56,421 nucleotides of DNA, taken from positions 1 through 56,421 of the forward strand of contig JBDSQB010000021.1 of NCBI GenBank assembly GCA_039930045.1, in the 5' to 3' direction. How positions within the stretch are numbered: position 1 is the first letter of the stretch; every line of letters begins with the position of its first letter. This DNA is from Chthoniobacterales bacterium (lineage in GTDB: Bacteria > Verrucomicrobiota > Verrucomicrobiia > Chthoniobacterales > DASVRZ01). The translations under genes were made by a program, and so were the position numbers. A model generated the notes under the pieces. That model ran no database searches. It was not told where the DNA came from and saw nothing but the letters and a program-made list of their open reading frames with translations. Below, in pieces: positions 46,942 through 56,397 of the stretch.

Positions 46942-48225
46942 TTAACCCGCTTGCATCGTGCTGATGATGGAGATCAGCGGAAGGAAGAGCGCAATGACGA
47001 TGGTTCCGACGACCACGGCCAAAAAGACGATCATGATCGGCTCCAACAGCGAGGTGAGTCCGGTGACGGCGTTATCAACTTCATCGTCGTAAACTTCGGC
47101 GATCTTCAGAAGCATTTCGGGTAATTGCCCCGTTTCCTCGCCGACGTCGATCATACTGATAACCATCGGTGGAAACACGCCGCTCGCCTCGAGGGGCTGC
47201 ACGATGGATTCACCTTCCTTGACGGAGTCGTGAACCTTGTTGATGGCGTCCGCGATGACTTGGTTGCCGGCGGTTTCGCGGGTGATGTTCAACGCCTGCA
47301 AAATGGGGACACCGCTCGTGACGAGCGTTCCCAAAGTGCGGGTAAAACGGGAGATGGCCGTCTTGCGAATCAGGTCGCCGAAGAGCGGCATTTTGAGTTT
47401 GATCCGGTCGAGAATGACTTTTCCTGCTGGAGTTCCTGCGAAGAAATTATAGCCAATCACCAAGCCAACGACGGCAGGGATGATGATTAAGATGTGATCC
47501 TTCAGCAGATTGCTGCAATTGATCACGAAAACTGTCAGACCGGGGAGCGGCTTGCCGTTCAACATATCCCGGAAGATCTGCTCGAACTTCGGCACGATGA
47601 ATACGAGCAGGAAGCCCATGATCGCGACGGCGATGAAGAGCACGATGACCGGATAAAACATGGCCGCGACGACCTTGTTTTTGATCTTCTGCGCCTTTTC
47701 CTGGAACTCCGCCAGACGGATGAGAACGAGTTCGAGCACGCCGCCGAGTTCGCCTGCTTTCACCATATTGACGTAGAGCTTGTTGAAAATTTTCGGGTGA
47801 CCAGCGAGGCTTTCCGAGAAGGTGCTGCCGCCCTGCACAGTGTCAGCGAGCTGGGTAATGGTCGCCTTCAAAACTGGGTCGCGCTCCTGTTTGGCGAGCA
47901 CCGTCAGGCCACGTAACAGTGGAAGTCCGGCGTCGATCAGCGTGGCGAGCTGACGGGTAAAAATCATCAGCACCTTGGGCTTGATCGTGCTCTTTTTGAA
48001 GAGCGGCTTTTTAGTTTTCGAGGCAGCGGACGTCTGGGCGATTTTCGTCGCCGTTTTCTTGACTGCCTTGCTGGAGGCACCGGCCGAGCCTTCCGCGAGG
48101 ACGCTGGTGGGGAAATATCCAGACTGCCGGAGTTGTGCGACGGCGTCGTTGGAGTCGGCGGCGTCTATGACTCCGGTGTTTTCCTGTCCGCGGGCATCGA
48201 GGGCGACGTAATTAAATCTGGCCAT
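46942..48225 (-). CDS. pilC: type IV pilus/type II secretion inner-membrane platform protein (PilC/GspF)
   Basis: 427 residues. A short N-terminal domain (ARFNYVALDARGQENTGVIDAADSNDAVAQLRQSGYFPTSV) is followed by two GspF domains of ~120 residues, with motifs LATLIDAGLPLLRGL and LGTLVTSGVPILQALNI, and membrane spans near 220, 270 and the C-terminus. It forms the platform on which the ATPase hexamer drives pilin assembly. Starts 77 bases after the gspE/pilB stop. Confidence 0.96.
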   Translation of the reverse strand: MARFNYVALDARGQENTGVIDAADSNDAVAQLRQSGYFPTSVLAEGSAGASSKAVKKTATKIAQTSAASKTKKPLFKKSTIKPKVLMIFTRQLATLIDAGLPLLRGLTVLAKQERDPVLKATITQLADTVQGGSTFSESLAGHPKIFNKLYVNMVKAGELGGVLELVLIRLAEFQEKAQKIKNKVVAAMFYPVIVLFIAVAIMGFLLVFIVPKFEQIFRDMLNGKPLPGLTVFVINCSNLLKDHILIIIPAVVGLVIGYNFFAGTPAGKVILDRIKLKMPLFGDLIRKTAISRFTRTLGTLVTSGVPILQALNITRETAGNQVIADAINKVHDSVKEGESIVQPLEASGVFPPMVISMIDVGEETGQLPEMLLKIAEVYDDEVDNAVTGLTSLLEPIMIVFLAVVVGTIVIALFLPLISIISTMQAG

Positions 48226-48302
48226 ATTCTAGGGGGTGGTGAAGCAGCTGGGTGCAAGGTAACTTTTTCTGCGGGAATGTCGATGGTGAAAAGGTTCTTT
48301 TC

Positions 48303-49985
48303 TTAGGTGTATTTGACGACTTCCTCAATGGTAGTTTCCCCGTCAAAAATGCTTCGCAGGCCATCCTCGCGCAGGGTGACCATGCCGAGTTCGATCGCTT
48401 TCTGCCGTAGGACGAGCGACGGCGCGCGCTGGTTGATCATTTCGCGAATCGGGTCGGTGACATCGAGCAATTCGTAGATGCCCTTGCGGCCTTTGTAGCC
48501 GGTATTGTTGCAGTGATCGCAGCCTTTGCCGTAGAAAAAATTCTTGTCGCCGATGTCGTGCGGCGAGAGCCCGAGCTGGGCGAGCAGAGCCTCGCTCGGC
48601 TCATACGGAGTGCGGCATTGCGGACAAATTTTCCGGATGAGACGCTGCGCCAGCACGCCTTCGAGCGCGGCAGAAATCAGAAACGGCTCGACTCCCATGT
48701 CTATCAGACGGGCGACTGCACCAGGGGCGTCGTTGGTGTGCAACGTGGTCAGTACCAAGTGACCGGTGAGCGAGGCTTGAATGGAAATCTGCGCCGTCTC
48801 CAAGTCGCGGGTTTCCCCGACCATGATGCGATCCGGGTCCTGACGCAAAAACGCCCGCAGCACACGTGCGAAGCTGAGTCCGATGGCGTCGTTTACTGGC
48901 ACTTGCATGATGCCTTCCATGTCGTATTCGACAGGGTCCTCGGCAGTCAGGAGTTTGGAATCAATCGTGTTGATCCGGCGCAGGCAAGAGTAGAGCGTGG
49001 TCGTTTTTCCAGAACCCGTCGGGCCGGTGACGATGAAAATGCCGTTCGGTTTCTCGATGGTCTTGAGGATGTATTGGTAGAGCGCATCGGGCATTCCGAG
49101 CGTTTCCAAGTCCAGATTCACCGACGATCTGTCCAGCACACGGAGCACGACGCTCTCGCCAAATTGCGTGGGCAAAGTCGAGACACGCATGTCCACCGCG
49201 CGTCCGGCGATGGTCTTTTGAATGCGGCCATCCTGCGGCAGGCGGCGTTCGGCGATGTTTAAGTTCGCCAGCACTTTCAGACGCGAAATCACCGGCAGCG
49301 CCAAGTGACGCGGCGGCGGTGCCATTTCGTAGAGCGCGCCATCCACCCGGTAGCGAATCTTAAATTCATACTCAAACGGCTCGAAATGAATGTCACTCGC
49401 CCGATCCTGAATCGCCTGATAGAGAATCAAATCGACGAACTTGATGATCGGAGTTGCATTCGCTTCAGCCTCGCCGCCGCCGGCACCGACATTTTCCAGA
49501 AGTTGCAGTTCCTCGCCGCCAAACGATGCCATGATGTCGCTCATGGACGCCGAATCGGAGCCGTAGCTCGTTAAAATCAGCTCATCCACCTTGTCCGGAT
49601 CGGCCACCACCACTCGAATGTCGCGACTTGCCGCAAAGCGCAATTCCTCGACCGTGTCGCCATTCAGCGGATCGGAAAGCGCCACCAAAATCGCACCGTC
49701 CTGCTCGCCCAGAGGGAGCGCTCCATGGAGCCGGGCCAGACCCGCCGGGAGCAGGCGCAATGTCTCATGGGGAATGACCACTTCCGTCAGGTCGTAATAT
49801 TCCGTGCCGAGGTTTTCGGCGACCTTGGTGAGAAATTCTGCGGAACTCTGAAAATAACCGAAGTCCACCAGCAATTGCTCGACGGGTTTGCCGCTTTGGG
49901 CGGCTTCCTGGAGGATGTCCTCCGACTGGGTGCGAGTCATGACGCCGTTTTCGACGAGCATGTCGGTGACCATTTTTGCGTTCAT
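48303..49985 (-). CDS. pilB: GspE/PilB-family assembly ATPase (copy 1)
   Basis: 560 residues. An N-terminal MshEN-like domain (about 1-150) precedes the ATPase core with FVTGPTGSGKTTTLYS-type Walker A (near residue 325), an Asp box around EDPVEYDMEGIMQVPVN, Walker B RAFLRQDPDRIMVGE and His box LTTLHTND. A zinc-binding CPQC...CDHC pair lies near residue 465. Powers pilin polymerisation or secretion. Adjacent to pilC, with which it probably works. Confidence 0.95.
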   Translation of the reverse strand: MNAKMVTDMLVENGVMTRTQSEDILQEAAQSGKPVEQLLVDFGYFQSSAEFLTKVAENLGTEYYDLTEVVIPHETLRLLPAGLARLHGALPLGEQDGAILVALSDPLNGDTVEELRFAASRDIRVVVADPDKVDELILTSYGSDSASMSDIMASFGGEELQLLENVGAGGGEAEANATPIIKFVDLILYQAIQDRASDIHFEPFEYEFKIRYRVDGALYEMAPPPRHLALPVISRLKVLANLNIAERRLPQDGRIQKTIAGRAVDMRVSTLPTQFGESVVLRVLDRSSVNLDLETLGMPDALYQYILKTIEKPNGIFIVTGPTGSGKTTTLYSCLRRINTIDSKLLTAEDPVEYDMEGIMQVPVNDAIGLSFARVLRAFLRQDPDRIMVGETRDLETAQISIQASLTGHLVLTTLHTNDAPGAVARLIDMGVEPFLISAALEGVLAQRLIRKICPQCRTPYEPSEALLAQLGLSPHDIGDKNFFYGKGCDHCNNTGYKGRKGIYELLDVTDPIREMINQRAPSLVLRQKAIELGMVTLREDGLRSIFDGETTIEEVVKYT

Positions 49986-50080
49986 AATGTTCTGTTGGCG
50001 GAGGGGTGAAAACTAACTTCCCGCAGAATAGGTTTTTTGCCAGTCTCGAAAAGCATTTTGCAAAGAAATCTGAGATTCGT

Positions 50081-51160
50081 CTAACACTGCGGCACGCGGC
50101 CTTGCAGGAGTTGTTTCAGGCCGCTCACGTCCTGCGCTTTGCCGAGCATTTCCTCCTGGCTGATCGTGCCGTCGAGATAGAGCTGGACCAAGTGCGAGTC
50201 GAGCGTGTTCATCCCGAGCTTCGCGCCGGTCTGGATGTCGTTCGTGATGCGAAAGGTTTTTCCCTCGCGGATAAATGCGCCGATGGATGGCGTATTGATC
50301 ATCACTTCAAACGCCGCGACCCGGCCCGTGCCGTCTTTTTTCGGCAGCAATAATTGGGAAACCACCGCGCGCAGGTTGATGCTGAGTTGCACTCGAATCT
50401 GCTCCTGCTGCTCGGGCGGAAACGCGTCGATCAGCCGGTCCACGGTTCGCGCCGAGCCCGTGGTATGCACGGTGGAAAACACCAGATGTCCCGTCTCGGC
50501 GGCGGTGATGGCGGCCTCAATCGTCTCCAGGTCGCGCATTTCGCCGACGAGAATCACGTCCGGGTCCTGCCGCAGGGCGCGGCGCAGGGCCTCGGCGAAA
50601 TTCGGCACGTCCACGCCGATCTCACGCTGGTTGACGATCGCCCGCTGATGCGAATGATAGTACTCGATCGGGTCCTCGATGGTAACGATGTGACACGCCT
50701 TCGTGCGATTGATCACGTCGAGCATCGACGCCAGCGTCGTCGTTTTTCCCGAGCCTGTCGGACCGGCGACGAGCACGAGGCCGCGCGGCAGATCCAGCAA
50801 TCCGCCCACACTCGGCGGCAGCCCGATTTCCTCCAAGGTTCGGATCTGACTCGGAATGAGGCGCGCAACGAGACCGATGACGCCTTTCTGCCGGAAAATG
50901 CTGCATCGAAAGCGGTCCCCGGATTCCATGGCAAAGGCAAAATCCACAGTCGAGTGCGAGTTGAGTTGCGCGACTTGGTCACCGTTGGCGAGGTCGGTGG
51001 CGAACCGGCTGGCGTCCTCCGCGTTAACGAAAGGCAGGTCGAGCCGCACGAGTTCACCGTGAATCCGCAGGACGGGCGGCGCGCCCACAGAGATATGCAA
51101 GTCCGATGCGTCGCGCTCGCAGACCATTCGCAGTAGGTCTTCGATGACGAGGGGAAACAT
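50081..51160 (-). CDS. pilT: twitching motility/pilus retraction ATPase PilT
   Basis: 359 residues, PilT length, without the N-terminal MshEN domain of PilB. Walker A is GPTGSGKTT (about 133-141), Walker B is RRALRQDPDVILVGEMRD and the His box is FSTVHTTGSA. The retraction-specific C-terminal motif appears as SIGAFIREGKTF. PilT depolymerises type IV pili, so the cluster probably serves pili or twitching rather than only secretion. It lies between the two PilB-type genes. Confidence 0.95.
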   Translation of the reverse strand: MFPLVIEDLLRMVCERDASDLHISVGAPPVLRIHGELVRLDLPFVNAEDASRFATDLANGDQVAQLNSHSTVDFAFAMESGDRFRCSIFRQKGVIGLVARLIPSQIRTLEEIGLPPSVGGLLDLPRGLVLVAGPTGSGKTTTLASMLDVINRTKACHIVTIEDPIEYYHSHQRAIVNQREIGVDVPNFAEALRRALRQDPDVILVGEMRDLETIEAAITAAETGHLVFSTVHTTGSARTVDRLIDAFPPEQQEQIRVQLSINLRAVVSQLLLPKKDGTGRVAAFEVMINTPSIGAFIREGKTFRITNDIQTGAKLGMNTLDSHLVQLYLDGTISQEEMLGKAQDVSGLKQLLQGRVPQC

Positions 51161-51175
51161 GAGCGGAGTTAGAGC

Positions 51176-52879
51176 CTAATCTGCGTCCGACATTGTGGTG
51201 GTCACGACCTCATCGACGGACGTGAGTCCGGCCAAAACCTTGCGCACGCCATCCTCGCGCAGGGTGCGCATCCCGAGTTCGCGGGCGCGTTTGCGCAACT
51301 GAATCGTGGAGCTGCGGTCGTTCACCATGCGGCGGACTTCGTCGTCAATTTTGAAGATTTCAAAGATGCCCATGCGTCCGCGATAACCCCGGCGACGGCA
51401 TTCGGGACAACCCACAGGTTCCATCACCGTCGCGTCGGTGACCTGGCGCGGATCGAGGCGCAGGGCGCGATAATCGACGTCGGTGAGGGTGTGATACGTC
51501 TTGCAGGCGGGGCAAAGTTTCCGCACCAAACGCTGGGCGAGCACGGCTCGAATGGAACTCGCCACGAGGAAGGGTTTGACTCCGATATCGACGAGACGGG
51601 CGACGGCGCTCGGGGCGTCGTTGGTGTGCAAGGTGCTGAAAACCAAGTGGCCGGTGAGCGAGGCATTGATGGCGATGCTGGCCGTTTCCAAGTCACGAAT
51701 CTCTCCGATCATGATGATATTCGGCGCCTGGCGCAGCATGGAGCGGAGCGCGGCGGGGAAGGTCATGCCCACGTCGGTGTTCACCTGCACCTGATTGATG
51801 CCATTGAGCTGGTACTCGACCGGGTCCTCGACGGTGATGATTTTTCGGTCGGGCCGGTTGATGTAATTGAGGCAGCCGTAGAGCGTGGTGGTCTTGCCAG
51901 AACCCGTCGGGCCGGTGACGAGCACGATGCCGTCGGGCAAGGCAATGAGGGCTTCCATTTCCTCCTGGTCGTCGGTGAGGAAGCCAAGTTCGGGCAGGCC
52001 GAGGGTGAGGCTCGACTTGTCGAGAATACGCATGACGACGCTTTCGCCATGGTTGGTGGGCACGGTGGAAACGCGCAGATCGATCTGATTCTTGCCCATT
52101 TTCACCTGAATGCGGCCGTCCTGCGGCAGGCGCTTTTCCGCAATGCTCATGGAGCCGGTCATGATCTTGAGGCGGCTGATGATGGCCGACTGCAATTTCT
52201 TCGGCGGGCTCTGCATTTCCATCAACTGGCCGTCCACCCGGAAGCGCACGCGGAAGCTTTTTTCCATGGGCTCGAGGTGAATGTCGCTCGCCCGGTTTTT
52301 GTAGGCCTCGACGATGAGCATCGTGACCATCTTAATGATCGGCGCGTCGCCGCCATCGCCCTCGGCCCCCTCGCCCACGGTGGAGACGGTGTCGTCGCCG
52401 TCGAGGGAGATGCCCAGTTTTCCCTCGATGCTGGCCGAAGCGTCGTCGGCGGAACCGTAGTATTGAATGAGGGCGTTTTTGATTTGGCCCTCGGTCGCGC
52501 AGACAAATTCGATCTCGCGATGGAGCAGATGGATCAGCGAATCGAAGGTCTCGAAACCGAGCGGATTGCTCGTGGCGATGACGAGCATCTGGTCGTTTTT
52601 CGCGACAGGAATGACGTGGTAACGCCGGGCGATGTCCGCTGGCAATTCCGCGATCACCTCGGGCTGGATCGGACTCTGGGTGAGATCGTAAAATTCCATG
52701 CTCGACTGAGCGGCGAGCGTGCGGGAAATGTCCTCCTCGGTGACGATTTTTTGATCGACGAGATATTCGACCATGCTGCCTCCATTGGCCACGGCATCAC
52801 GGGCGGCCTCCAGTTGATTGCGGGAAACCAGACCGACATCCTGGAGGATTTGAACTACGTAATCTTCGTCGTTGAGCAC
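51176..52879 (-). CDS. pilB: GspE/PilB-family assembly ATPase (copy 2)
   Basis: 567 residues if translation starts at GTG 52879 (VLNDEDYVVQILQDVGLVSRNQL); the frame is open to 53026, but the added residues are not family-like. An MshEN domain (about 1-150) is followed by the ATPase core: GPTGSGKTTTLYG, RSMLRQAPNIIMIGEIRD, FSTLHTNDAPSAV and the zinc motif CPAC...CPECRRRG. Clearly paralogous to the 48303-49985 gene. The two may serve separate pilus and secretion machines. Confidence 0.93.
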   Translation of the reverse strand: MLNDEDYVVQILQDVGLVSRNQLEAARDAVANGGSMVEYLVDQKIVTEEDISRTLAAQSSMEFYDLTQSPIQPEVIAELPADIARRYHVIPVAKNDQMLVIATSNPLGFETFDSLIHLLHREIEFVCATEGQIKNALIQYYGSADDASASIEGKLGISLDGDDTVSTVGEGAEGDGGDAPIIKMVTMLIVEAYKNRASDIHLEPMEKSFRVRFRVDGQLMEMQSPPKKLQSAIISRLKIMTGSMSIAEKRLPQDGRIQVKMGKNQIDLRVSTVPTNHGESVVMRILDKSSLTLGLPELGFLTDDQEEMEALIALPDGIVLVTGPTGSGKTTTLYGCLNYINRPDRKIITVEDPVEYQLNGINQVQVNTDVGMTFPAALRSMLRQAPNIIMIGEIRDLETASIAINASLTGHLVFSTLHTNDAPSAVARLVDIGVKPFLVASSIRAVLAQRLVRKLCPACKTYHTLTDVDYRALRLDPRQVTDATVMEPVGCPECRRRGYRGRMGIFEIFKIDDEVRRMVNDRSSTIQLRKRARELGMRTLREDGVRKVLAGLTSVDEVVTTTMSDAD

Positions 52880-53052
52880 AAGGGGGAGGGTTTGAGCCCA
52901 AAACCTACGGAGCGGCCCTCTTCGTGTCAACGGATGCGAAGGACGAAATGCAAATTGGCAAAAAAATCCTCCTTGAGCCGCAGACCACCTCAGCTCACCG
53001 AGCATCTCCAGTCCGACCAGTTCCACAAACGAAAGAGGCCGCCGTCGCCATC

Positions 53053-53229
53053 ATGCTCAAACTCTCGCACACCCTTTGGGGCACCCTCCACCATCAACAA
53101 CCCTTCAATCCTTCTTTGTTTTACCAACGCAAGAAAGCCATCGTGGCCGTTGCGCGGCAACGGGCCGTCCATCTCTGGCGGCTCCACACCGGCCAATGCA
53201 GCGCAGGACAACTCGGCCTCACCCTCTAA
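53053..53229 (+). pseudogene. IS110-family transposase C-terminal remnant
   Basis: About 58 codons read MLKLSHTLWGTLHH and then RKKAIVAVARQRAVHLWRLHTGQCSAGQLGL, which resembles the C-terminal end of IS110/IS116/IS902 transposases. No DEDD catalytic domain is present upstream; the remaining sequence is the start of the pilB-like gene on the other strand. Judged a fossil of an insertion sequence near the integron array. Recognition is from memory of the family and not verified. Confidence 0.5.
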
Positions 53230-53790
53230 CCAAAAACTAACCTTTCGAGATTAAACCTCTTTCCACCTAACATCGCCTATCGAGTCATCGACCAAACGCT
53301 AGATACACCTTCGCGCCACCTTTGGGTCGTGGCGTTAGTTTGCAGCCTAACCTGAACCATCCGGCAGGAGAGTTCGACGCTATAGATTAAACAACGCCCG
53401 TGATCCGCTGATACCGACTGGATAGGTCATATTGCGCTGACTAACATACCAACCACAGAGTCATGCGCGGATAGACCGTTGTTAGACCAACGAGACTCTT
53501 TCGCAGCGGGTGCCGCCACAAAGACACACTGAAAACCACACACCACTAGAAGAATGAAAATAAACCTGCGGCACTTGGAAGAGAACGGGGAACCACAGCG
53601 CGCGTAGCGCATAGCCAGCCTTCTCTCCTATTCTACATTCCCTGCTGGCATTTCCCCGAACCCCTCCTCTAGGGGGGGTAACAGCTCTCCGGTCACACCA
53701 AACTAACTCACCAAAACTAACCAACAACTCCGCCTCTCACATCAACCTTAACTTGACACCTTTCATAGGGGTTAGGCCACATGGTCATCT
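53230..53790. other. gene-free interval ending in an integron core-site half
   Basis: No convincing gene in ~560 bases; the short minus frames at 53427-53727 lack codon structure. The words CTAAC and GTTAG are frequent. A GTTAGGC core (53771-53777) forms the R''-type box (GCCTAAC on minus) at the left end of the last cassette, but a matching R' box with normal arms was not found, so this attC is degenerate or truncated. This is the distal end of the cassette array. Confidence 0.6.
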
Positions 53791-53970
53791 CTACTTCCGA
53801 ACTACTTTGTGGATCAAAAGGCTGATCAAAAAATAGACAGCCGCGAACGCGCTCGCAAATATGATAAGACGCGTCTTAATGTCCGATGCGCCGTTCGACT
53901 TCCAAATAAACCACACACACAACGTGGCTATCGCGGATGCTGCCAATGTCTGCTTGATTAAAGGTTTCAT
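53791..53970 (-). CDS. integron cassette ORF: small two-span membrane protein
   Basis: 59 residues from MKPLIKQTLAASAIATLCVWF (ATG 53970); a start at 53988 would add six residues. Two membrane helices (about 7-24 and 35-54) and a basic tail (HKVVRK). The start lies 23 bases inside the cassette after the attC at 53993-54095, a normal cassette geometry. No family recognised. Confidence 0.65.
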   Translation of the reverse strand: MKPLIKQTLAASAIATLCVWFIWKSNGASDIKTRLIIFASAFAAVYFLISLLIHKVVRK

Positions 53971-53992
53971 AAATCTACAAATGCTCAATGTG

Positions 53993-54095
53993 GCCTAACG
54001 AGTCAAAGCTCAGCGACACGTAGGGAACGTCACGAGGGCTGCGCAAGCAGAACTCGTGACGAGCCCGGAGTGTTCGCTGCATCGCTTGGTTAGGC
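53993..54095 (-). other. attC site A
   Basis: 103 bp bounded by GCCTAAC (53993-53999) and GTTAGGC (54089-54095). In the minus orientation R'' is followed by the arm GCAGCGAACA, which pairs with TGTCGCTGAGC with one unpaired base, as in attC L boxes. An inner GTCACGAG/CTCGTGAC stem is visible. The stop codon of the 54090 cassette ORF lies inside the R'' box, typical of gene cassettes. Confidence 0.92.
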
Positions 54096-54329
54096 GACGG
54101 TTGGGTGAGCCTGCTTTTGTTGAAGCTCAGCAACTTGGGCCCGTAGATCGCGAATCTCGCGTTGCAACTGCGACGAAACGGTACCGCCGAAGACGAAGCA
54201 CATCGGCAGGAAGGCATAAAACGCTGGTCGCCACCATCCAGAATCTGGGATGGTGCTAGAAGCGAGGAGCGGCATCAGCGAAAGGAAAGCGCAGAAAGCT
54301 GCTGGAATCCAATGAATAATCTGTTTCAT
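54090..54329 (-). CDS. integron cassette ORF: membrane protein with C-terminal coiled coil
   Basis: 79 residues. Two hydrophobic stretches (IIHWIPAAFCAFLSLMPLLAS and WWRPAFYAFLPMCFVFGG) are followed by a short coiled coil (SQLQREIRDLRAQVAELQQKQ). The stop codon is within attC site A. The arrangement suggests a small oligomeric inner-membrane protein. No family recognised. Confidence 0.7.
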   Translation of the reverse strand: MKQIIHWIPAAFCAFLSLMPLLASSTIPDSGWWRPAFYAFLPMCFVFGGTVSSQLQREIRDLRAQVAELQQKQAHPTVA

Positions 54330-54387
54330 AGTTGTTGGTGTGTGATGGATGATTCTGGCGTGAGTGTATCCCGGACTAAGCGTAGTC

Positions 54388-54489
54388 GCCTAACGTATCA
54401 AGCTCAGCGGCGCTTTGAGGATGGCGGACGGACTCCGCAAGCAGGTCGTGTGACAGCTTCGGAGTGTTCGCTGCAGCGCTTGGTTAGGC
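54388..54489 (-). other. attC site B
   Basis: 102 bp from GCCTAAC (54388-54394) to GTTAGGC (54483-54489). The outer arms are nearly identical to site A (AGCTCAGCG on the left, CGCTGCAGCGCTTG on the right), while the centre differs (GGATGGCGGACGGACTCCGC). Confidence 0.92.
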
Positions 54490-54756
54490 AGTGGGGCCTG
54501 CGATTGGTGTGGCCACTGCCTTCACCTTGATGAAGCCGATGCACAACGCCAGCGCGCTGAGGCCAATGGCCACAACAAAGAGTGCGCCGCTGAAGCGAGG
54601 AATTATCTGGCCGATCTTGTGGCAGACGCCGAGCAAGGTTGCAGCGACGATGACCGAAATAAATGCGGTGCCGAGCCCCGAACGAACGGCACCGAGGATG
54701 AGAAGAATGATGGAGGCGAGAATCTGAAGGACAAGAAGCAACGCAAATGGTGACAT
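54484..54756 (-). CDS. integron cassette ORF: three-span membrane protein
   Basis: 90 residues from MSPFALLLVLQILASIILLILGAV at 54756; the longer frame to 54912 runs into attC site C and is rejected. Three membrane helices cover about 4-24, 32-50 and 60-82. The stop lies in the R'' box of site B. No family recognised. Confidence 0.65.
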   Translation of the reverse strand: MSPFALLLVLQILASIILLILGAVRSGLGTAFISVIVAATLLGVCHKIGQIIPRFSGALFVVAIGLSALALCIGFIKVKAVATPIAGPTA

Positions 54757-54842
54757 AGGAAAACGATGTGAATTCTGAGAGTAGGTTGTAGTGAGTGATT
54801 CGGCAAGTGATTCAACTAGGATTCGGCTATGCGGAGAAAGAG

Positions 54843-54945
54843 GCCTAACGAGTAAAAGCTCAGCGAAGCAGAGGGATGGACGCATGATGGGCGCAAGCAC
54901 AGCGTGTGACAAGCCCGGAGTGTTCGCTGCAGCGCTTGGTTAGGC
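54843..54945 (-). other. attC site C
   Basis: 103 bp from GCCTAAC (54843-54849) to GTTAGGC (54939-54945), with the same conserved arms as sites A and B and a variable centre. It lies just downstream (leftward) of the CPBP protease cassette. Confidence 0.92.
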
Positions 54946-54954
54946 GCCTCCGCC

Positions 54955-55671
54955 CTACCCGTTGAGAATGTTTCGGTAAGCATCGATCAAGGAATGGTAA
55001 ACCGAAGGAAGCAGTAGTGTGCCGCTACGCCGCCAGCAAAGGGAAATAAAAACGCCGTCGAGGCAGTGGCTAAGGACTATGATCGGAACCACCACCACCA
55101 ACTCCGCAATCCCATGCAGAGGCACGAGCGGCAAATGCCATATCCCCCAAAGCGCCGAAATGAAAACGGCGGATAACCACTCGTGTCGTCTGCCTTCGAT
55201 GGGTTGGTAAACGTGGCTGTCAAAGGCACCGCGAAACGCCACCTCCTCAATGACGAAGGAAACCACCAGATAGCCCAAAAAGATCTTCAGAAAAGGCAAT
55301 AGCTTGTTTGCAGGGATGGATGCGGAACGACCGTGGCTGACCGCCCACAGCGCAAACGTAAGTGTGCCGACCAAAAGAGCTGCCCCGAAAGGCCAGAGAG
55401 CCCGGCCGGAAAGCGCCGCTCGGATATGCCTCAAAGCGAAAGCAACACCAACTGCCCCAACTAAGGAACAGACCAAGTAAAGCTTGATCATCAACGGTGC
55501 CCTGGCCGCAGTGGTGACTAACTCGTATGCTGGCGAGATCATCAAGAGCAAAGCAAAGAGGACGCCAAGCGCGTCGAGATGGAACCTCGGGGAGTTGCGA
55601 ACCCAAAGCGTCCGTAGCGGCTGGCGATGGATAAATAGCTGGAACGCAATCACCACAGGCACGCCGAGCAA
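54955..55671 (-). CDS. integron cassette ORF: CPBP-family intramembrane metalloprotease (possibly frameshifted)
   Basis: 238 residues as read from TTG 55671, multi-pass. CPBP (CAAX protease and bacteriocin-processing) motifs are present: EEVAFRG (Glu-Glu-x-x-x-Arg), the WGIWHLP histidine motif and a final YHSLIDAYRN. These enzymes process peptides or prenylated substrates in the membrane. A better N-terminus, MKYFQVILTVAAWMSIGWLL from ATG 55741, sits in a different frame and only 18 bases from attC D, so a one-base frameshift near 55665-55690 probably broke the original start. Confidence 0.85.
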   Translation of the reverse strand: MLGVPVVIAFQLFIHRQPLRTLWVRNSPRFHLDALGVLFALLLMISPAYELVTTAARAPLMIKLYLVCSLVGAVGVAFALRHIRAALSGRALWPFGAALLVGTLTFALWAVSHGRSASIPANKLLPFLKIFLGYLVVSFVIEEVAFRGAFDSHVYQPIEGRRHEWLSAVFISALWGIWHLPLVPLHGIAELVVVVPIIVLSHCLDGVFISLCWRRSGTLLLPSVYHSLIDAYRNILNG

Positions 55672-55758
55672 TAGGTAGGCGCAAGAGCCAACCTATCGAC
55701 ATCCAAGCCGCAACGGTCAAAATGACCTGGAAATACTTCATTGCGTATTATCTGAGTC

Positions 55759-55860
55759 GCCTAACGAGAACAAGATCAGCGACACGCAGGGAACGGCGCG
55801 AGGACTGCGTAAGCAGAACTCGTGACGAGCCCGGAGTGTCGCTGCATCGCTTGGTTAGGC
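55759..55860 (-). other. attC site D
   Basis: 102 bp from GCCTAAC (55759-55765) to GTTAGGC (55854-55860). Arms as in the other sites, except that GTGTCGCTG replaces GTGTTCGCTG on the right side, removing the base that would be unpaired in the L box. Activity of this site may therefore differ. Confidence 0.9.
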
Positions 55861-55875
55861 CAAAGTGTCATATCT

Positions 55876-56277
55876 CTAGGCAGAAGTCCGAGAGGCAACC
55901 TTTAGTGAGATAGCACCCAAAATCCAAACCAAAACTTGTGATATAGGAACGACAAAGGCGTAGAGCGCACCTAAAGCATCCGATCGGGCGGCTTTGATAA
56001 TCGTCGGAGTCCAGGCAACCCAACAAAGCAGAAATAGAAAAGCAGCAATAGAAAGAACGGTGGCGCGAAATGGGTAGTCCACAGCAAGCGGCTTGCGAAG
56101 ATGAATACCGTAGAAAAGGAAAGATGGTGCAGACAGTATGCCGTAGATGAAAAATAAGGCCGGAAGCTTGGCAACAAACGGCGTGTAAGGATCCGGGAAA
56201 GCCAGATAGATGAGCATAAATAAAGAATACAGAAGCGAAATCACAATCGCAGCTTTTGGTGTAACCGATCTATTCAT
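55876..56277 (-). CDS. integron cassette ORF: four-span membrane protein
   Basis: 133 residues with four membrane helices (about 8-28, 36-58, 70-92 and 104-126) and short loops. The ATG lies 18 bases inside the cassette after attC E, the same spacing as the inferred original start of the CPBP cassette. No family recognised. Confidence 0.8.
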   Translation of the reverse strand: MNRSVTPKAAIVISLLYSLFMLIYLAFPDPYTPFVAKLPALFFIYGILSAPSFLFYGIHLRKPLAVDYPFRATVLSIAAFLFLLCWVAWTPTIIKAARSDALGALYAFVVPISQVLVWILGAISLKVASRTSA

Positions 56278-56294
56278 AAGAGGTGCGGAGATGG

Positions 56295-56397
56295 GCCTAA
56301 CGTAACAAGCTCAGCGACACGTAGGAAAGTGGCGGGAGATGTGCGACAGCACAGCTCGTGACACGCCCGGAGTGTTCGCTGCAGCGCTTGGTTAGGC
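56295..56397 (-). other. attC site E
   Basis: 103 bp from GCCTAAC (56295-56301) to GTTAGGC (56391-56397), with arms as in sites A-C. It ends a further cassette whose gene lies beyond the right edge of the window. Confidence 0.92.

Follow-up and report, generated by a model that had tools for sequence, protein, structure and literature searches.

Cassette array at a contig end, very probably the integrase-distal end of a chromosomal integron

The right end of the window (the whole stretch analysed, 56,421 nucleotides, which is the entire contig C21 of a 3.52 Mb genome in 23 contigs) is very probably the integrase-distal end of the cassette array of a chromosomal integron. Its last 2.4 kb contain five attC sites of 102-103 bp between leftward cassettes. 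The cassettes would be single genes, each ending in attC. The integron integrase IntI is expected to fold the bottom strand of attC, here the plus strand of the contig, into a hairpin and to cut at G^TTRRRY, so that cassettes could be inserted or excised at attI. Both integrase and attI lie on another contig, C10, with intI at 629-1615 on the plus strand and an attI core on the minus strand, and we infer that the C10 integrase acts, or once acted, on the window array. By every testable feature except the physical linkage of the window array to intI, the whole system is an integron.

The attC sites

The five sites of the window are the following.

53993..54095, minus strand: attC 1, 103 bp, the distal-most intact attC
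54388..54489, minus strand: attC 2, 102 bp
54843..54945, minus strand: attC 3, 103 bp
55759..55860, minus strand: attC 4, 102 bp, fold z -6.6
56295..56397, minus strand: attC 5; together with the next 24 nt it makes up the 127 nt that also end contig C7

Read in the cassette (minus) sense, each site has RYYYAAC and GTTRRRY ends. The pattern GCCTAACCAAGCG-N70-100-GTTAGG has 13 matches in the genome, all within arrays and in a single sense, and its reversed control has none in the same 3.52 Mb. The bottom strands of the window sites fold with -21 to -32 kcal/mol (z -2.2 to -6.6), better than the top strands by 1.5-7.6 kcal/mol in all five cases, and the arm of the hairpin contains extrahelical bases. 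Thus the R''...R' boxes, the bottom-strand hairpin and the extrahelical bases that define an attC are all observed. In the alignment of 16 attCs, 92.9% of the cells of the consensus structure are paired, compared to 25-40% with slid partners, and eight pairs are altered on both sides.

A cassette array with five attCs had been proposed by the sequence-only reading, and is confirmed by the pattern, its reversed control, the bottom-strand fold and the covariation. The near-identity of the sites, described there with GCCTAAC/GTTAGGC ends, is likewise borne out. That reading expected a bulged hairpin on the minus strand; the bulged hairpin exists, but the strand that should recombine is the plus strand. 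It also suggested a search with an attC covariance model. The model found the sites, but it was built from the same 16 attCs that were scored rather than being an independent published attC model, and so it recovers them by construction. It also detects two isolated attCs elsewhere in the genome. The scores from this model of the genome's own sites are 74-123 bits for those attCs and at most 54 bits in other integrons. Within the arrays, neither Rfam nor tRNA scans gave a match.

Near-identical palindromic sites with small ORFs between them could also be a dispersed hairpin repeat of the REP/MITE type beside small membrane-protein genes. This is highly improbable, as the sites combine GTTRRRY/RYYYAAC ends with a strand-asymmetric bulged fold, have a single orientation, and are clustered at array ends in a genome that contains both IntI and attI.

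Cassette genes

The cassette ORFs of the window are the following.

53791..53988, minus strand: last cassette ORF, 65 aa, two transmembrane segments; no attC after it
54090..54329, minus strand: 79 aa, one transmembrane segment
54484..54756, minus strand: 90 aa, about four transmembrane segments
54955..55671, minus strand: 238 aa, CPBP/Rce1-like membrane protease, PF02517 41.6 bits
55876..56277, minus strand: 133 aa, about four predicted transmembrane segments

The leftward orientation noted earlier holds for all five. Only the 238-aa ORF has a family match (PF02517); its 5' end looks frameshifted, since the ATG upstream of it, at 55741, is out of frame. The 133-aa ORF has no Pfam or NCBIfam match. 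A simple hydropathy rule classes all five products as membrane proteins, in agreement with the earlier claim. The claim does not extend to the whole genome, where the rule picks 12 of the 16 main-array cassettes and, among background ORFs, 37 of 86 (Fisher p 0.03). The enrichment is modest and reflects an already known tendency of cassettes to encode membrane and secreted products (PMC12444791).

The region directly to the left of the array, 46942-53026, contains genes that look like type IV pilus/type II secretion genes by their sequence, with two GspE/PilB-like ATPases, a PilT-like ATPase and a PilC-like protein.

Integrase and attI

No integrase is visible in the window, as already stated by the earlier reading, because the contig ends at 56421. 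The corresponding features were found on C10.

C10:629-1615, plus strand: intI, 328 aa, TIGR02249 450 bits (cut-off 265 bits)
C10:520-542, minus strand: attI core, with GCCTACAATATGTTAGGC at 520-537; about 90 nt separate it from the start codon of intI

The C10 protein, which lies outside the window, is a tyrosine recombinase of the IntI type and has the extra segment specific to integron integrases. Its best PDB match is Vibrio IntI4 (2a3v, 6e-86), alignable end to end, and the residues R146, K171, H277, R280, H303 and Y312 are invariant across 11 homologues; it is presumably active. Among named IntI proteins the closest is that of a Verrucomicrobia MAG (61% identity). IntI above the TIGR02249 cut-off was observed in 20 of the 57 genomes searched (this one and others of its order).

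The core on C10 has the layout GYCTA-N6-GTTRRRY, matching the region upstream of other intI genes, as for an attI next to intI. Promoter-like sites occur in both directions around attI and intI. One consensus-like candidate for the Pc promoter, CTTACA-18-TACAAT (C10:558-529), overlaps attI. The first cassette on C10 comes after attI. The earlier expectation that intI should lie to the right of the window is partly borne out: a complete IntI and attI exist with the predicted polarity, and the window array may continue into either C10 or C13.

Array fragments and the assembly break

The pattern and the covariance model together give 17 sites of the main-array attC type, all in one sense, on four contig ends.

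C21, right end: 5 attCs
C7, right end: 8 attCs
C13, left end: 3 attCs
C10, left end: 1 attC

The contigs with arrays carry large chromosomal flanks. Short tandem-repeat stretches adjoining repetitive-looking alanine-rich proteins were noted at the right flanks of several array pieces (L140, L141, L022, L023).

The final 127 nt of C21 are identical to the final 127 nt of C7. Overlaps of 127 nt occur at other contig ends too (C1/C22 and C13/C4), so this length is the k-mer of the assembler, and both contigs end at a node that they have in common, an attC or cassette that is repeated. Thus the array is cut at a repeat, and the window contains only five attCs because the assembler broke the arrays at such stretches. 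At the other end of the window, positions 1-100 overlap the right end of C12 through a hexanucleotide repeat, and this is likely a contig join.

Two of the array ends are distal (C21, C7) and two are proximal (C10 with intI, C13 without it), and hence there are at least two arrays. Both C10 and C13 are compatible with the window array as its proximal partner, and the shared 127-mer favours neither. The array that is not joined to C10 runs to the proximal end of C13, and would be an integrase-less cluster. That end was considered as another attI, but it is a truncated attC, ...ACTCGTTAGGC.

There is nearly an even chance that the window array is this separate integrase-less cluster (CALIN), joined to C13, split off by rearrangement and fixed in place. 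The excess of ends suggests this possibility, as only one of the two proximal ends has intI and the other starts in a truncated attC; in addition, sequences of an IS110-family transposase are present at both distal ends. On the other hand, C13 is not favoured over C10 as the partner, and the shared 127-mer shows only that both distal contigs enter one repeated node.

Distal terminus and IS110-family element

Three features lie at the distal ends.

53746..53777, minus strand: distal terminus GCCTAACCCCTATGAAAGGTGTCAAGTTAAGG, 32 nt, not attC, ending the last cassette of the window
C7 (L021:7278-8632): IS110-type element inserted in one attC
53026..53136, plus strand: remnant of the C-terminus of an IS110-family transposase, 62% identical to the C7 copy

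The earlier reading began the array at 53771; only a GTTAGGC box is present there and not a sixth attC. The 32-nt terminus as a very short attC was rejected, since it does not fold (z -0.7), and as an IS end it has no relative among plasmids and viral contigs. The single other copy of GCCTAACCCCTATGAAAGGTGTCAAGTTAAGG in the genome (C3:169625-169656) ends a solo cassette. In G004, a genome of another family, 26 nt of the terminus end a cassette beside intI (L041:124-149). Arrays in two families of the order end in such a 26-32 nt terminus, in each case adjoining a GTTAGGC box.

The C7 transposase (PF01548 and PF02371) is split into two halves by one in-frame TAG. It ends about 10 nt before the attC, where the R' box is GTATCTAAC instead of GCCTAAC, and judging from the flanks the element was apparently inserted at the CT core of the attC. 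The only other copy of the transposase in the genome is the window remnant. No IS110 transposase was observed near intI of other integrons in the loci examined. Upstream of the C7 gene there are about 315 noncoding nt with a 24-nt tandem repeat. The noncoding region of the element also contains TCGTTAG, a 7-nt complement of the attC end, which is suggestive but weak.

A DEDD transposase element at one attC end is reminiscent of the IS1111-attC elements ISKpn4 and ISPst6 (PMC11187229). However, the long noncoding region is upstream and not downstream of the transposase, which makes the element IS110-type rather than IS1111-type (PMC11187229), and the in-frame TAG is a further difference.

attI-like cores elsewhere in the genome

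The whole genome was searched with the pattern CTTTCGYCTAYAANNNGTTAGRY, allowing at most three mismatches. It occurs in seven places, compared to one for the reversed pattern; the pattern itself was partly defined on the C5 and C9 sites. The seven are the true attI, a place with three mismatches (C2:631829) that was excluded from the attI-like list, and five integrase-less attI-like cores with 0-2 mismatches (L155-L159).

C5:50302
C9:41183
C23:62086
C3:60886
C3:169066

A cassette-like ORF on the same strand begins 21-46 nt after the core in all five cases; a same-strand ORF was likewise placed at 4 of 29 matched control sites in other genomes and at 8% of random positions. Intact attCs are present at two cores, C9 and C5, and no attC was seen at the C23 and C3:60886 cores. 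The left half of the pattern alone matches perfectly three times here and twice in 37 other genomes.

One possibility, which is less likely than not, is that the integron seeded single cassettes at scattered chromosomal sites mimicking its own attI. Within the core, the hexamer TAYAAN is similar to a -10 box and could drive expression of a newly inserted gene; selection for this promoter could also add to the likeness among the cores. The 5' half of the C5 attC (L141:4803-4926) is nearly identical to that of an attC of G027 from another family (L029), which suggests exchange of cassettes within the order.

Two described situations are similar, in that a cassette lies away from the integron and has a partial entry site 5' of its ORF. 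The first is that of the attG secondary sites (Loot 2024, cited in PMC12444791), which are described as neither attC nor attI and as broadly spread; the five cores of this genome, in contrast, are similar to the local attI CTTTCGYCTAYAANNNGTTAGGC. The second is that of the upstream delta-attI cassettes (PMC12901181).

Comparison with other integrons and implications

The system shares with the sedentary chromosomal integrons of the Vibrio/Xanthomonas type a TIGR02249 IntI, attI beside intI, many near-identical attCs and small ORFs whose function is unknown. Another parallel is the occurrence of detached clusters without integrase within one genome, known in Xanthomonas (PMC12444791). It differs in that at least 17 main-array attCs were found, compared to a size criterion of about 20, in the presence of at least two separate arrays, and in coming from a lineage for which little integron literature was found. 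As assembled, the window and C13 fit the description of a CALIN, an attC cluster without nearby intI; however, both have an assembly break, and the genome does carry intI.

These data add a chromosomal integron with recognisable attI, intI and pieces of its arrays. It comes from a lineage, probably Verrucomicrobiota, whose integrons are little covered in the literature. The data also illustrate how assembly from short reads makes a single integron look like clusters without integrase, which biases counts of CALINs. If the cassettes were indeed seeded at the scattered cores, the cores would serve as attI-like secondary integration sites in nature, in contrast to the loose attG sites seen in the laboratory, and the uninterrupted CTTTCGYCTAYAANNNG would be the empty form at the same gene borders. 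If the cores are real IntI targets, it would become directly testable, by comparing empty and filled sites, whether integrons permanently feed genes into the rest of a natural genome, which is a long-standing question.
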